Virus record (IMG/VR): IMGVR_UViG_3300049595_001589
Location: 1 to 36,748 of that record
Direction: 5' to 3' (one strand)
Origin: a virus
Length of the DNA stretch: 36,748 nt
Below, piece by piece: positions 2,614 through 36,748 of the stretch; position 1 is the stretch's first letter, and each line of letters opens with the position of its first letter. Position numbers and translations under genes: made by a program. The notes below the pieces were generated by a model, which did no database searches, was not told the DNA's origin, and was given only the letters and a program-made list of their open reading frames with translations.

Positions 2614-2721
2614 TTCTCCTCCTTTGGCGGTGCTGGTAGCGGCATCCAGTGCGTAACATCAACTAGCGTATGACGCTGCTAAAAGCTCTAATCTGTCAAT
2701 CTCTTCAGGTGTTTTGCTCAT
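2610..2721 (-). pseudogene. Collapsed DUF551 gene: N-terminal and C-terminal ends only
   Basis: From ATG at 2721 the reading frame gives MSKTPEEIDRLELLAASYAS and stops at 2659. In the next frame, bases 2663-2610 encode VDVTHWMPLPAPPKEEK and a stop. Intact neighbours start (K)TPEEMAEEY and end in a THWMPLP-type motif, so this 112-base piece looks like a DUF551 gene whose middle was deleted, leaving both ends out of frame. The ATG still overlaps the upstream TGA, and the end still supplies AAAGGAGGAG and GTGA to the next gene. The truncated peptide may persist only for translational coupling. Confidence 0.7.
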
Positions 2722-2990
2722 AATCCTTCATCTCCGTGTATTGCATTGTGCTGCCAGTTCTCTAACTGTGTTTCTAGCTCTTGAATCTTAGCTTCGTACT
2801 CTTGCTGTGCCGCTTTGTAACCATCGATGAAGCCTTTAATAATCACCAATCGCTCGACGTAACTTAGCTGCTTACTGTCACAATACTTCTCTGCTATCTC
2901 TTCAAGTGTTCTTATACTGCTTTTTTGTTGCGGTATTATGTATGGGTCTGGAATGTAAGGCGGATTTGGTTTATGCGGAAACTTACTCAT
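2718..2990 (-). CDS. DUF551-neighbour paralog, N-terminal module plus coiled coil, 90 aa
   Basis: Starting at ATG 2990, just inside the end of the preceding DUF551 gene, this encodes 90 residues. A Pro-rich leader is followed by RTLEEIAEKYC (the array's TPEEMAEEY module), GFIDGYKAAQQ (the AGYKAA helix), and a short coiled coil (EYEAKIQELETQLENW). It has no DUF551 domain. The end overlaps the ATG of the collapsed copy (ATGA). An upstream in-frame start at 3074 would read through the neighbour and is unlikely. Function unknown. Confidence 0.65.
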   Translation of the reverse strand: MSKFPHKPNPPYIPDPYIIPQQKSSIRTLEEIAEKYCDSKQLSYVERLVIIKGFIDGYKAAQQEYEAKIQELETQLENWQHNAIHGDEGL

Positions 2991-3516
2991 AATTCTTTTT
3001 CCCGTACCACATTGATTCTGAATCTTCATAAGACGGCTGAATAGTTTCACTGCCATTTGCTCGAAGAAAATCAATCAAACTATGATTGTGCCTTCCTGAA
3101 CATAATTTAGTTTTAACGTATTGGCGTTCATTAGCTGTCATTGTTGAACGGCCATCCACTTCAGGAAGCACCGCAGGCAACTCTGGCAACTCCATCCAAT
3201 GCGTTACAAAGTGTGTAAATCCCTCGTTTTTGTCATCGCCCTGATGAAACGTAAAATCTCCGCTTTCATCTTTTGAAAAGAGATAATAAATCTCGGCCAT
3301 GTAACTTCTTATTGGTGGAGCTGGATTACGCACAGCGCAAAGCACTGGCTTGCCTAACTCTGGTAATTCTTCGTCTACGCTGATCCATTGCTGTGCCGCC
3401 TTGTAGCCAGCGATAAACGCATCTTTGACTAAGTCTTCTGCGTCACGATTTATTGCGGCACAAGCAACTTCGTCTTGATTACAATACTCCTCGGCCATCT
3501 CTTCTGGTGTCTTCAT
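2983..3516 (-). CDS. DUF551 domain protein with C-terminal extension, 177 aa
   Basis: Starts MKTPEEMAEEYC at ATG 3516 behind GAAGGAGGAGAA. It has the full module order of this array: the TPEEMAEEY helix (1-12), FIAGYKAAQ (about 43-51), the DUF551 start QWISVDEELPELGKPVL (about 51-67), and FVTHWMELPELP (about 107-118) closing the domain. A tail of about 60 residues (TANERQYVKTKLCSGRHNH...) is unique in the set. DUF551 is a small domain common in phages and prophages, with no established biochemical role. The next gene starts inside its last codons. Confidence 0.75.
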   Translation of the reverse strand: MKTPEEMAEEYCNQDEVACAAINRDAEDLVKDAFIAGYKAAQQWISVDEELPELGKPVLCAVRNPAPPIRSYMAEIYYLFSKDESGDFTFHQGDDKNEGFTHFVTHWMELPELPAVLPEVDGRSTMTANERQYVKTKLCSGRHNHSLIDFLRANGSETIQPSYEDSESMWYGKKNYE

Positions 3517-3541
3517 TTCTCCTCCTTCGGTATATCTGCGT

Positions 3542-3871
3542 TCATTTATTCTCAATTTCCCTCATGTAATGCTTGCAAACGTTAGCTTTCATCCGATGAA
3601 TTGCATTATTCATCTTACCTTGTGCAATTTGCTCATCGGTTAGACCATGTATTTGTGTCCATGCCATGATGTAATCACCTTCTGCCAGTGGCTCCTCGCC
3701 GTACAAGACCCAAGCGTCCGTTTCGTGATTAAACCAGGTAATAAACTGCCTTCCATTTTTGGTTACTGCTAAGACTCTACTGATAAACATGGGTAGATGC
3801 GCTGGATAGTCTGGCGACTCATAATCGATAAATTGCCACGGATCTGCTATAACTGGTATTGGCGTTATCAT
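3542..3871 (-). CDS. Conserved hypothetical protein, 109 aa
   Basis: A 109-residue protein starting at ATG 3871 in an ATGA overlap with the DUF551 gene upstream, whose last codons hold AAGGAGGAGG. It contains WQFIDYESPDYPAHLPMFI and VLYGEEPLAEGDYIMAW, then a basic helix (MNNAIHRMKANVCKHYM). It sits between two DUF551 genes but lacks their motifs, so it is either unrelated or too diverged to place. No function recognised. Confidence 0.6.
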   Translation of the reverse strand: MITPIPVIADPWQFIDYESPDYPAHLPMFISRVLAVTKNGRQFITWFNHETDAWVLYGEEPLAEGDYIMAWTQIHGLTDEQIAQGKMNNAIHRMKANVCKHYMREIENK

Positions 3872-4230
3872 CCCTCCTCCTTTGGCGCTTCAGGTAGCGG
3901 CATCCAATGGGATATGCTTTCTACCCCACAAATTAAAAGTCCTGTTTTTGTTGAAGCATAAAAGCTAGGACTGTTATCTGAGCTTCTGTTTTGATATCGA
4001 CAGCAATTACAAACTTCTTTGTTTTCAACAAAAGCTATAAATTGTTGATTTATTTCCGGCAACCTATCCTTAACGCTGATCCACTGCGGCTCTACCAATT
4101 TCGTGGCGTCACGAAAATGGTTCTCAGCCGCCTTGTAGCCAGCGAGGAATCCAGCTTTTAATGGTGCATAGTAAGCATCTGACACACACAAGTCAGCATA
4201 CTCTTCCGCCATTTCTTCAGGTGTTTTCAT
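3868..4230 (-). CDS. DUF551 domain protein, 120 aa
   Basis: From ATG 4230 (MKTPEEMAEEYADLC), in an ATGA overlap with the preceding gene, this encodes 120 residues. It is a complete copy of the array's architecture: TPEEMAEEY, FLAGYKAAEN (about 31-40), PQWISVKDRLPEINQQFIAF (about 51-70) and SISHWMPLPEAPKEEG at the C-terminus. The last codons form the ribosome-binding site of the next gene. The longer in-frame extension to 4365 overlaps the neighbour entirely and is not supported. The role of DUF551 is not established. Confidence 0.8.
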   Translation of the reverse strand: MKTPEEMAEEYADLCVSDAYYAPLKAGFLAGYKAAENHFRDATKLVEPQWISVKDRLPEINQQFIAFVENKEVCNCCRYQNRSSDNSPSFYASTKTGLLICGVESISHWMPLPEAPKEEG

Positions 4231-4469
4231 TTGCCTCCCATCTTTGCCAATACACTTTTTAACGCATACTGTGCGGCTCCTAACCCTGGATATTCCGCTC
4301 TGTGTGCTTGCACTGCTTGTAGCTCCTCTTCGACTATGGCCTTTGCCGCCTTGTAGCCAGCGCAATAACCATGATCGAATCCGTCTTGATAATCTCGATT
4401 GGCTTGAATTAGCCTATCTTTTCTATACTCCTCCGCCATCTCTTCAGGTGTTTTATTGTCATTATTCAT
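4227..4469 (-). CDS. DUF551-array paralog lacking DUF551, 80 aa
   Basis: An 80-residue protein beginning MNNDNKTPEEMAEEY, with GYCAGYKAAKAIVEEEL at about residues 34-50 and a helical Ala-rich end. It keeps the first two modules of the array but not the domain with WISVKDRLP and HWMPLP. AAAGGACTCGTT precedes the ATG. It ends in an ATGA overlap with the following full-length DUF551 gene. Function unknown; it may be a truncated paralog or an adaptor made of the N-terminal module alone. Confidence 0.65.
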   Translation of the reverse strand: MNNDNKTPEEMAEEYRKDRLIQANRDYQDGFDHGYCAGYKAAKAIVEEELQAVQAHRAEYPGLGAAQYALKSVLAKMGGK

Positions 4470-4479
4470 AACGAGTCCT

Positions 4480-4737
4480 TTACGCTTCCCGACTTATTCG
4501 ACGGCGGCTCCGCGCTGCCGGATTCTTAATCAAATAAATAGTTCCTGTTGTCGAATCAAAACATCTGTATTGCTTCATCCTCTCTTCGCGAAGTACCACC
4601 TCGATGGGAACTTCTCTCGCACCCGCTTGCTTGATTAGGTCATCAATTTTTGGTGCGTTCTGGATTGATTCGTAGTACCAAAATGCGTCGTTATTCTCCG
4701 CGCACTTTTCCGCCATCTCTTCTGGTGTCTTGGTCAT
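4480..4737 (-). CDS. DUF551-array N-terminal module protein, 85 aa
   Basis: Starts MTKTPEEMAEKCAENNDAF behind AGGGGGTATT, giving 85 residues. Only the TPEEMAE module matches the array; the rest (EVPIEVVLREERMKQYRCFDSTTGTIY) is different and ends in an Arg-rich tail. It follows the 44-residue conserved gene by 16 bases and precedes the 80-residue paralog by 10. The recurring start module fused to unrelated C-termini suggests exchange of gene ends by recombination. Confidence 0.6.
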   Translation of the reverse strand: MTKTPEEMAEKCAENNDAFWYYESIQNAPKIDDLIKQAGAREVPIEVVLREERMKQYRCFDSTTGTIYLIKNPAARSRRRISREA

Positions 4738-19999: not shown

Positions 20000-20319
20000 G
20001 TAAATATCAATTATATCAATACTGTCATAACCAAAAGAAAGTAGTGCCAGTAGACCAAGTCGAAAGAAACTATCAAAGCTACGCTAGGGATCTTTTCATT
20101 CAAGATGAAATGGCTCCAACCCGTAATCCTTTAAATCCTAAAGAAATCTATACCAGTAAATCAAAGCTCAGAGCTGCTTACCGAGCAGCAGGGGCGGTTG
20201 AGGTTGGTGATGCTTACGAACGCGGGTACATCCCAGAACGAGAGTCTGGCGCACCTGAACGAAGGCTAATCAACGAAATTAAAAACAAAATAATAGATAG
20301 GTATAGAAATGGAAGATAA
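19996..20319 (+). CDS. Conserved phage protein upstream of the scaffold, 107 aa
   Basis: From ATG 19996 (MSKYQLYQYCHNQKKVVPVD), in an ATGA overlap with the repeat protein. The 107 residues include ARDLFIQDEMAPTRNPLNPK, YTSKSKLRAAYRAAGAVEVG and a basic end. This type commonly sits directly before scaffold and capsid genes in related phages; its function is not known. Its end overlaps the scaffold start by 11 bases. Confidence 0.6.
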   Translation: MSKYQLYQYCHNQKKVVPVDQVERNYQSYARDLFIQDEMAPTRNPLNPKEIYTSKSKLRAAYRAAGAVEVGDAYERGYIPERESGAPERRLINEIKNKIIDRYRNGR

Positions 20320-21358
20320 CATAAATGACGTAGAAGAAACTGAGGTAAAATCAGAGCGTAAAGCAGCGGATCTTTCTATTCGTCAAAAGTTACGCCAACA
20401 GTTGCGTAGCGAGTCGAGTGAGCCAGAAGAGGACAATCCAAGCGAGGAACCCGCCCAAGAAGCCGAGGAAACAGTCGTAACTGATCAACCAGTGAGTGAA
20501 GCTACGCCTGAAGTCGTACAGCCTCAAGCGCCATTGATGGTACCTCCAGCCGATATGAACGCCGCTGAAAAAGAGGCGTTTCTCAATCCAACTCCAGCGA
20601 ATGCCCATGTTTTGCAATCCTATTTAAATAGGCGAGCCTATGAAACTCGCTCCGATTATAGTCGCAAAATGCAAGAGGTCGAGCAATTAAAAAAACAGAC
20701 CGCTGGCTTGTACGACACGATTCGGCAATATGAAGAGGAGTACGCTAAAGACGGTATATCAATCGCCGATGTTACTAAGCGAGCTATTGCTTGGGATAAG
20801 GCGATGCAGAAAGACCCAGTTGCTACAGCTATGGACTGGCTAGATGCTCATGGCGTAAACGTCAACGACCTTTTAAACCAGCAGCCAAATCAAGTTCAGC
20901 AGCAAAATTACTTAACCAGGGAAGAAGCCGAGAAGATTGCTGAGGAGCGATATAAAACTTTAACTCAGGAGCAGGAAAAAAAGGCAGTTGATTATTATAA
21001 CGAGCAGGTTGTAAACTTGTTTAAGGCTAATAAACCACTATTTAGAGATCCAGAAACCGCAGCTCAATTAGAGACGGAAATGGCTCCAGTAGTACAAGCG
21101 CTTAGTCAAACAGGGCGGTATTCCTCCCCTGAACAGGTGCTTGAGACTGCATACAACTATGTGGTGAACGGCAATCCGACCTTTTCCAGCCTGACTTCTA
21201 AAATGGCTGCGGGGCCGGTAGTACAACAGCAGCAAGCTACAGCTCAAAAAGCTAAGGCCGCTGCAAAAACAATATCTGGCTCCGCCGGTAGCGGGACTCC
21301 CAGGATACAAGCTCACAACTTACGGGATAACCTGCAACGTCGATTTGTCGGCGAATAG
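20309..21358 (+). CDS. Scaffolding protein
   Basis: A 349-residue, strongly acidic, helical protein directly before the major capsid gene. Residues 1-75 are Glu/Pro/Val-rich and disordered; about 115-150 is coiled coil (YSRKMQEVEQLKKQTAGLYD); Gln-rich helices follow. The C-terminus is basic (IQAHNLRDNLQRRFVGE), as expected for the capsid-binding helix-loop-helix of scaffolds. It would shape the procapsid and exit before DNA packaging. No protease motif is present, and no separate prohead protease gene is visible. Confidence 0.75.
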   Translation: MEDNINDVEETEVKSERKAADLSIRQKLRQQLRSESSEPEEDNPSEEPAQEAEETVVTDQPVSEATPEVVQPQAPLMVPPADMNAAEKEAFLNPTPANAHVLQSYLNRRAYETRSDYSRKMQEVEQLKKQTAGLYDTIRQYEEEYAKDGISIADVTKRAIAWDKAMQKDPVATAMDWLDAHGVNVNDLLNQQPNQVQQQNYLTREEAEKIAEERYKTLTQEQEKKAVDYYNEQVVNLFKANKPLFRDPETAAQLETEMAPVVQALSQTGRYSSPEQVLETAYNYVVNGNPTFSSLTSKMAAGPVVQQQQATAQKAKAAAKTISGSAGSGTPRIQAHNLRDNLQRRFVGE

Positions 21359-21396: not shown

Positions 21397-22353
21397 ATGG
21401 CTAATTTAGAAGAAGCAATCGTAGCTACCCTTTTCGACCAATCGTCGGAGATAGCGGATCTTGTGTTGCATCACAATCCACTAACTTCTCTATTGGATGA
21501 GAAGGGTAAAATTAAGAAAAGTGAAGGTGGAAGCGAGTTCCGTAAGCCCGTTATGTATAACGATGCTGCGGTAGGAGGATTCTACCAGAATTATCAGTCG
21601 TTTGACCTTAGTTCAATCGATGACCTAACCGCTTTCCGTTTTAACATCAAGCAGTGCTATTAGCCTGTTGCGATTAGTGGACGTGAGCGCCGCGCTAACC
21701 GTGGAGATGCACAGCTCCTCGACCTAGCTGAAGCAAAGATGGAGGCCGCTATCGAGCGCCTAAAGAATACTGTTTCCACCTCCCTTCGTGGTGATGGAAC
21801 TGGTTCTGGTGGACTTGAGTTTGACGGTATTAAGAAGGCAGTTTCGACTTCGCCTTCCTCTGGTACTTACGGCGGTATTGATCGTGTTTCTAACTCTTGG
21901 GCTAGAAACTACGCTACTCAGGTAACACTGACAGCGGCAAACGTACAGGAAAACATAACCGATGTTATCAGCCGCCTAACCCGTGGTTCTGAGGCACCGG
22001 ATCTTGGTTTACTGGATCGTACTGCTTGGAAGTTCCTTCATAGCTCACTAACGGCAATTCAGCGTATTCAGCTTCCTACAAAGAAGGCTGTTGCTGGTTT
22101 CCGTACATTAGCTTATGACGGATGCGACTTTGTGTTTGATGGTGGTTACGGATCAAGCGTACTTGAGACAAATTCATGCCGATTGCTCAATACTAAGTAT
22201 TGGACTTTTGACATGGTTCGAGGAAGCGACTTCAAGCCACTAGCACCAACTATGGATCGCCCAATAGATCAGGATGCTTTCTTCACGGTTATTATCGTTG
22301 AAGGAAACCTCTGCTGCTCTGCTCCGGCTCTCCAAGGTGTTATTTACGCTTAA
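21397..22353 (+). CDS. Major capsid protein, HK97-type, interrupted by an in-frame amber codon
   Basis: A continuous frame of 318 codons with TAG at codon 89 (21661-21663). Before it: MANLEEAIVATLFDQSSEIA, SEFRKPVMYNDAAVGGFYQN, RFNIKQCY. After it, in the same frame: PVAISGRERRANRGDAQLLD, DGTGSGGLEFDGIKKAVSTS, and WTFDMVRGSDF near the end. Together these make a full-length HK97-type coat protein. AAGGGGATAACA precedes ATG 21397; no good start or ribosome-binding site serves the second part (an ATG at 21739 lacks one). TAG ends many other genes here. Readthrough, an amber mutant, or a base error are all possible. Confidence 0.85.
21661..21663 (+). other. In-frame TAG codon within the major capsid gene
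   Basis: The codon lies between TAT (Tyr) and CCT (Pro) in the sequence KQCY*PVAISG. One base change would make it CAG (Gln), TAT/TAC (Tyr), TCG (Ser), TGG (Trp), TTG (Leu), AAG (Lys) or GAG (Glu). The reading frame is intact on both sides, so only this base, not an indel, interrupts the gene. Confidence 0.9.
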
Positions 22354-27401: not shown

Positions 27402-28946
27402 ATGCCATTTCAAGGGTTCACAATGTCACCGCCCTATGGCGGGTTGGATGCAGTAAGTCCAATAGACAATATGGATCCAGCTTTTGCTCTGGAATTGGTA
27501 AACATATTCCCTGGAGCCGGAGCGCCATCGGTTAGACTAGGGTATACCAAGTTTAATAACAGTGGCACAACTATTCCAGCAACGCCAATTAACTTTATGC
27601 GGGAACTACCGCTAAAAACAGGTGTTAAGCACCTTATAGCGGCCACAGACAGCGCTATTTATAAGATACTATCTGACGGGTCGGTAAGCGCTGTTACTGG
27701 CACCACGGCGATTACAGACGGCAAATTTAACTCTGAAATCTTTGCCAATAACCTTTACCTTTGCAACGGCGCACAAACTCCACAGGTTTATACGGGAACT
27801 GGTAATGCAGCCGATGTTACGTTTACTTGCAGTGCTGGCCTATTAAACCTAATTACCTGCGCTACTTGGAAACGAAGATTATATTTTATTCAAAAGAACA
27901 GTACTTCAGTTTGGGTTCACGCTTCAGTAGATGTTCCAGGTACAGGCGGGTCGCCTAAGTTAGATGAAATTGTTGATATAACTTACGCCTTAAAAAAGGG
28001 CGGTTATTTATTATTTGCTGGAAGTTATACAAATCAAATTGCATCTACTTCTCAAGACTTATTTTTTGCTTGCAGTTCTGAAGGGGAGGTAGTTTTTTAT
28101 AGTGGAACAAGTCCTTCCGATTGGTCGTTAGTAGCGCATTTCTATATAGCCAAGCCAGTAGGTTATAGAGCTTTTATTCGGTTTGATGCGGATATCTGGA
28201 TCCTTACTCAAGACGGTGTTGTACCTGTTTCCAGTTTATTTCAGGCCGATGCTGCTACCGCTGTTAATATTGTAAGCGGTAAAGTAAATCCAATTATTTC
28301 CGCTGCCGCTGAAACTTTTCCATTTTCGCATGATTGGTCGGGTTTTGTTTGGCCTAGAGGTCGAAGAGTCTATATATCAGTTCCGCAATCAAGCACAGAA
28401 AATTATTTCTTGGTGTACTCAATGGACACTAAAGGTTGGACTACTTTTAAACTTTTTAGTGGCACCCATGCCAACTCATCTTGCTACGCCTTTGAGCAAC
28501 CGTTTTACGGCTCCCTTACAGGAGTTGTTTACGAAGGGGAGAGCGGCCAAGCAGATGCGGTGACACCTACGTCATCGGGAGAAGCTATTCTTTTTGCAGG
28601 TCGAACAGCTTTTAGCTTTTATGGTAGCCGAGGTAATTATAAAGCTTTCAAAGATATTAGACCTTTATTAAAAGTAAAGAGAGGGGTTACATTAAGTATA
28701 GGGTTAGATACTGACTTTAAGCGAAGTGCAGTAACAACCAATGTGACAGTTCCACCAAGTAATTTTACACCTTGGGGGAGTCCGTGGGGTAGTCCTTGGT
28801 CGGCTGATGTAACCTATACTTTTGATAGGTACGCTGTAAAAGGACAGGGCCATTGTGCAGCAGTAAGGTTTGGTGGTGCTATTAAAAACACTACGATGGA
28901 TATATACGGATTTGAAATTCGGTATGATTTAGGTGGACAGGTATAG
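27402..28946 (+). CDS. Tail hub / packaged-DNA stabilisation protein, P22 gp10-like, 514 aa
   Basis: A 514-residue beta-rich protein opening MSPPYGGLDAVSPIDNMDPA and NIFPGAGAPSVRLGYTKFNN, with many repeated blade-like segments: HLIAATDSAIYKILSDGSVS, TWKRRLYFIQKNSTSVWVHA, DADIWILTQDGVVPVSSLFQ and VYSMDTKGWTTFKLF. The N-terminal pattern and length (P22 gp10 is 472 residues) fit the propeller-like tail factor that plugs the portal below gp4. The SPWGSPWGSP region near the end looks like a linker before a C-terminal strand. Family assignment is inferred. Confidence 0.65.
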   Translation: MPFQGFTMSPPYGGLDAVSPIDNMDPAFALELVNIFPGAGAPSVRLGYTKFNNSGTTIPATPINFMRELPLKTGVKHLIAATDSAIYKILSDGSVSAVTGTTAITDGKFNSEIFANNLYLCNGAQTPQVYTGTGNAADVTFTCSAGLLNLITCATWKRRLYFIQKNSTSVWVHASVDVPGTGGSPKLDEIVDITYALKKGGYLLFAGSYTNQIASTSQDLFFACSSEGEVVFYSGTSPSDWSLVAHFYIAKPVGYRAFIRFDADIWILTQDGVVPVSSLFQADAATAVNIVSGKVNPIISAAAETFPFSHDWSGFVWPRGRRVYISVPQSSTENYFLVYSMDTKGWTTFKLFSGTHANSSCYAFEQPFYGSLTGVVYEGESGQADAVTPTSSGEAILFAGRTAFSFYGSRGNYKAFKDIRPLLKVKRGVTLSIGLDTDFKRSAVTTNVTVPPSNFTPWGSPWGSPWSADVTYTFDRYAVKGQGHCAAVRFGGAIKNTTMDIYGFEIRYDLGGQV

Positions 28947-35854: not shown

Positions 35855-36657
35855 GATTGCTGTTACTATTGCTGGTAGCTGGTAGCGTACAAGCTCAAGC
35901 CCCTAGCTTTTTAGCGCTCTGCCACAAAGACTGGAACTGCAAGGCTACTGTAAAGCTCTACGATGGCCAGGAATCAATTGTAACGGGTTGGTTAGAGAAC
36001 ACCTTCAGTGCTAGCTGTGATTGCGCTGAAACTCTTTTAAATGACCCCAGGCGCAAAGTAGCTAGGGTGCACCTAATACAGAGCCCATGCCTAAGAAACA
36101 AGCGCTGCGGTCGTTATGAGGCGTTATGGGGCTATACGGTAGCATCGGCTAGTCGGGCGGCGCTACAGCCTAACAGTCGGTTAAGGAAACGATTTGGTAG
36201 GATATTAGAAACCTTTAGGCGGCGTATCGAGGGTAAGAAGCTTACCTGTTATGTTAGCCCTTGTTTGGAGTGTGACTTATATGAGCCTGCTAGAAGAGTC
36301 CTTGCCGGTTTGGTATCTGCTGCTTTGCCTGGTTGTAGTATTGTGGATAATCCTTATCGCAGACGCTGCCTCCCAGGAACCATTTGTGAAAAGCATGGGG
36401 ATAAACCTACAATCTCTAAGCCGTGTATAGTGGATCTGGATGGCACTGATGGCAGCACTGTTGATCTCAAGAATTGGGTTGCTAGGTATAAGCACTGTGA
36501 TTTATCCTACTATTGGGAACCCTGGATGAATTGCAACAGGGGTGACTTTATTAATCCCAGGAGTCGTAACTGTAAATATAACGCTTCGGTATTTGAAGCT
36601 ACTAAAGGATTATTATGCCAAAACTTTTATCCATCGTTAGACATTTGCTTACCTTAG
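35851..36657 (+). CDS. Secreted Cys-rich protein of the lysis region, possible glycosidase-like fold, 268 aa
   Basis: A 268-residue protein with a clear signal peptide (MRLLLLLLVAGSVQAQ). The mature part has about 19 Cys residues and alternating strand/helix blocks: KVARVHLIQSPCLRNKRCGR, LTCYVSPCLECDLYEPARRV, KPCIVDLDGTD, and CDLSYYWEPWMNCNRGDFIN. The spacing of short hydrophobic strands ending in Glu/Asp/Trp suggests a TIM-barrel hydrolase, so it may be an exported wall or glycan hydrolase. I cannot name a family. The stop lies inside the terminal overlap and its end overlaps the holin start by 43 bases. Confidence 0.5.
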   Translation: MRLLLLLLVAGSVQAQAPSFLALCHKDWNCKATVKLYDGQESIVTGWLENTFSASCDCAETLLNDPRRKVARVHLIQSPCLRNKRCGRYEALWGYTVASASRAALQPNSRLRKRFGRILETFRRRIEGKKLTCYVSPCLECDLYEPARRVLAGLVSAALPGCSIVDNPYRRRCLPGTICEKHGDKPTISKPCIVDLDGTDGSTVDLKNWVARYKHCDLSYYWEPWMNCNRGDFINPRSRNCKYNASVFEATKGLLCQNFYPSLDICLP

Positions 36658-36748
36658 GTGCTGGTAGTTTGCTTACTATTGGAGTATCTGAGAGCGATGC
36701 TGAAGGCTTAGTTAGAGCTGCGGAGCCGGTTGTAGCCGGTGCTATCAT
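36591..36748. repeat. Terminal direct repeat, right copy
   Basis: Matches 1-158 except A at 36622 for T at 32. It joins the end of the contig to its start, continuing the Cys-rich gene into the holin gene. See the left copy. Confidence 0.9.
36615..36748 (+). CDS. Holin gene, partial second copy at contig end
   Basis: The same gene as 25-210, cut by the window end after 44 codons. It reads MPKLLSIVRHLL where the left copy reads MPILLSIVRHLL. A positively charged residue at position 3 is common in holin N-termini, so the Lys form may be the majority sequence. The difference is either population variation or a base error at a low-coverage contig end. Confidence 0.7.
   Translation, partial: MPKLLSIVRHLLTLGAGSLLTIGVSESDAEGLVRAAEPVVAGAI

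Follow-up and report, generated by a model that had tools for sequence, protein, structure and literature searches.

The question raised by this locus is whether a TAG codon inside the major capsid protein gene of a metagenomic phage reflects an unusual way of making protein or a flaw in the sequence as recorded. The window, i.e., the entire 36,748-nt stretch of IMG/VR record IMGVR_UViG_3300049595_001589 that was analyzed, carries this gene on the plus strand at positions 21397–22353, where 318 codons are followed by a terminal TAA and the sole internal stop is the TAG at 21661–21663 (codon 89). The translation agrees in this respect with a preliminary description of the sequence, which had called the frame otherwise intact. 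Both sides of the stop match PHROG 9953 (“major head protein”), residues 2–86 before it with an E value of 1.6e-11 and the 204-residue part after it with an E value of 5e-42, and capsid relatives align from end to end without indels. The earlier view that both parts belong to one HK97-type coat protein and that no indel is needed is therefore upheld by the family matches and the alignment, as well as by the model described below. Judged by these comparisons, the frame is a real, conserved gene, and the stop is not a chance one outside genes; no frameshift or pseudogene decay was seen. Upstream, an intact plus-strand gene at 20309–21358 ends in TAG. A family search with this gene gave no match, and it is putatively scaffold-like on the basis of its position. 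The same order, a scaffold-like gene and then the capsid gene, is found with the capsid proteins of the Myxococcus phage Mx8 type (PHROG 9953; about 34% identity), whose genes are uninterrupted, whereas that of the window has the TAG.

To view the stop in its structural context, we relied on a model of a relative's capsid protein that is 94% identical to that of the window. Modeling from close relatives alone reached a pLDDT of 36, and a model from 56 sequences, distant relatives included, raised it to 78.5. Foldseek matched this model to phage capsids and encapsulins, the best match being the cyanophage A-1(L) capsid (7f38, E value 1e-8), and the window's protein is accordingly modeled, through its 94%-identical relative, as having the HK97 fold. 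Codon 89 falls within a predicted strand (residues 85–93) ahead of a long helix (residues 104–131). A product ending at residue 88 (21397–21660, plus strand) would comprise the N-arm and the first half of the E-loop in this model, and would end before that helix and lack both the P domain and the A domain. Neither the family match nor the model gave any sign of an independent function for these 88 residues. We also considered an internal restart at the next in-frame ATG, which opens a plus-strand ORF of 204 amino acids (21739–22353), but no Shine-Dalgarno-like site was seen there by eye, unlike at the true start at 21397, and this candidate was rejected.

Glu occupies codon 89 in all of the best 80 of 283 IMG/VR relatives, none of which has a stop in the gene. 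Adding further loci gave 127 distinct full-length sequences, spanning about 70–94% protein identity to the window, and here too Glu was found in 127 of 127 (122 GAG and 5 GAA) with no stops in the gene, although across the same sequences only 121 of the 314 columns tested are invariant. The TAG is one substitution away from the relatives' codon. More distant family members, at about 35% identity, carry V, C, A, or S at the corresponding position in intact frames, a statement that covers 56 of the 59 loci, the script having picked the wrong neighboring ORF in the other 3; in two annotated phages the residue is N and G, respectively. The example that had been offered for a sense codon, CAG (Gln), thus does not fit, since the relatives have Glu. 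In addition, a degenerate motif scan across 2.9 million viral contigs, designed to detect a stop or TGG at codon 89, returned 7 matches, with no capsid homologue among them, whereas the Glu form of the same motif gave at least 120 matches. A lineage-specific DNA pattern with codon 89 left open revealed no sibling in the viral collection, a search from which nearly identical records may have been withheld, so that immediate siblings might share the stop; a search for prophage relatives as a route to the host found no homologue in genome contigs. Among the 127 distinct relatives at about 70–94% identity, the TAG at codon 89 is, from the alignment, private to this contig.

Since none of the 127 distinct relatives shares the stop, it is best read as an error or a rare broken allele. 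We consider, with a probability of about 0.84 for the two taken jointly, that the TAG arose as an isolated error in the consensus or entered it during assembly as a nonsense allele of minority frequency. Under this explanation, either base calling or assembly would have introduced the error, or the merging of reads from several strains would have carried a minority allele into the consensus, while the working phage population would make the HK97-fold capsid protein from an unbroken frame of 318 codons, with Glu at codon 89. A sense codon would then be expected to dominate in the source reads. Whichever of the two applies, the case is almost certainly ordinary, with no new way of making protein.

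What supports a consensus error or minority allele is the combination of a private, isolated single-base change with another discordant base in the same contig. That second base was found at the contig ends, where positions 1–158 and 36591–36748 form a 158-nt overlap with a single mismatch (position 32 versus position 36622). The end copy encodes Lys at 36622, and relatives have V, I, or F there. The overlap junction is continuous inside related contigs, so that the two ends are copies of a single locus on a circular map; given the mismatch and a residue found in no relative, the consensus has at least one demonstrably discordant base. End overlaps of related contigs also carry mismatches (2 in 211 nt and 14 in 538 nt), which indicates that these assemblies are strain-mixed or error-bearing, at least at their ends. 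Isolated private changes and mismatched end overlaps of this kind are likewise features of point errors and strain-merged bases in metagenomic contigs. The record itself is classed as linear, and the overlap indicates that the genome is probably complete, at about 36,590 bp; the single mismatch likely masked the overlap from an exact-repeat test.

The credibility of the base was further assessed in eight well-sampled genes, in which 2,124 nucleotide columns are invariant in relatives. The window departs from them at 4 columns, 3 of which lie in codons with further changes, as in natural divergence, which leaves the stop as the sole isolated change of one base. Away from the terminal overlap, no other isolated private change occurs in these 2,124 columns, which is a point against error. 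About 4.9% of random coding substitutions give a stop, and one such stop therefore does not need an error-ridden contig. A literature search on oxidative sequencing artifacts found nothing specific enough to bear on the TAG.

Among the alternatives, the one that fares best is a true nonsense mutation at high frequency, such that a defective genome is packaged with capsid protein supplied by a co-infecting wild-type phage. A single substitution in an otherwise intact gene is what a very young null allele would look like, and related contigs show evidence of strain mixing. Nevertheless, the genome is complete and shows no other damage, whereas defective interfering genomes usually carry deletions, and a null allele of the coat gene should be rare owing to strong selection against it. 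We therefore regard this explanation as unlikely.

Functional readthrough, in which a host amber suppressor tRNA or leakiness of UAG would yield full-length coat protein, is more doubtful still. The residues found at codon 89 in distant members (V, C, A, and S, with N and G in two phages) suggest that several inserted residues might be tolerated. However, suppression seldom reaches the efficiency that the most abundant virion protein would require, and the rest of the genome speaks against it. Among the matches listed in a comparison with eight related contigs, no other in-frame stop or frameshift occurs in conserved window genes, the remaining stops sitting on antisense or out-of-frame ORFs (sorted by frame, by eye). 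The reverse comparison, over about 394,000 aligned residues, found no stop with conserved flanks in the relatives' counterparts of window genes; the residue count is redundant, as the loci overlap. In-frame stop codons of this kind thus number one in about 11,600 window codons, and TAG serves as the terminator of 12 of the 59 window ORFs. ARAGORN found no tRNA in the window, and an Rfam scan of it returned no family and no tRNA. None of the eight related contigs encodes a suppressor tRNA with a CUA anticodon, the sole tRNA being that for Asn; this gene lies at L228:5421–5498, has the anticodon GTT, and is the only tRNA gene in the loci scanned. The RNA 3′ of the TAG folds no better than shuffled sequences (z = 0.33), although a stimulatory 3′ structure is not required at every readthrough site. 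With one TAG, no conserved stop, TAG terminators, no suppressor tRNA, and no 3′ structure, recoding or programmed readthrough would have to operate here with none of its expected signs.

The alignment of relatives at codon 89 that had been proposed as a check thus ran counter to readthrough, with Glu in 127 of 127 and no stop. Of the options put forward in the preliminary description, a base error (or a rare null allele) stands, while readthrough, a suppressor tRNA, and recoding lose ground to a stop that is private and unique, with neither a tRNA nor a structure to accompany it. Prokaryotic in-frame stops have been interpreted as readthrough from conservation around or of the stops among related genomes (Belinky et al. 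2021, PMC7918605). Those cases and the window have in common an in-frame stop with the downstream frame kept; unlike them, the window's stop is in no relative. A narrower version, to which we assign an even smaller chance, places the lineage in a naturally amber-suppressing host, with the coat gene, its most highly expressed, recently put under suppression, so that hosts unable to suppress would yield no full-length protein. A stop that proved real and suppressed would leave coat synthesis dependent on suppression by the host, for which natural examples are rare, but nothing in the analysis speaks for this.

The two weakest explanations are both very improbable. The suggestion that programmed readthrough or termination yields an 88-residue regulator of capsid assembly draws on the truncated part being a contiguous N-terminal piece (the N-arm and half of the E-loop), but it fails because the stop is in no relative, whereas conservation would be expected of a programmed recoding site, and no RNA structure follows it. 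As for genome-wide or late recoding, phages that recode TAG are well documented (PMC11210395, PMC10607447), and the window shares with them (Crassvirales, translation table 15; phAss-1, PMC10607447) a TAG inside a late gene for a virion protein; yet recoded genomes carry the codon in numerous ORFs (41 in phAss-1; PMC10607447), often with a suppressor tRNA (one with a CUA anticodon occurs in about half of known TAG-recoded phages; PMC11210395), in contrast to the one TAG, the lack of such a tRNA, and the 12 TAG-terminated ORFs here. Several late genes of the window end in TAG, including, as had been pointed out, those for TerS, the scaffold, the gp10-like protein (27402–28946), and DUF5675, and the earlier judgment that genome-wide recoding is unlikely was sound.

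Preferring a consensus error or minority allele over these alternatives rests on three kinds of evidence that can serve in judging lone in-frame stops in metagenomic phage contigs, namely, the relatives' codon, the uniqueness of the stop in the genome, and the contig's internal discordance.

Two further observations concern other genes. The terminase large subunit at L215:103–2544 (the contig behind L028) is interrupted in frame after residue 121 by an insertion of roughly 340 residues, which begins with Cys, ends with KN before a Ser, and shows weak Hint-domain matches (Vint, E value 0.0027; Hom_end_hint, E value 0.0048) that lie below Pfam cut-offs. These features suggest that the insertion is probably an intein; the window's terminase lacks it. 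In addition, several early ORFs on the minus strand of the window (2718–4737) contain repeated motifs of 28–32 nt encoding a shared “TPEEMAE...GYKAA” segment, and by sequence they appear to form a family of small duplicated proteins.
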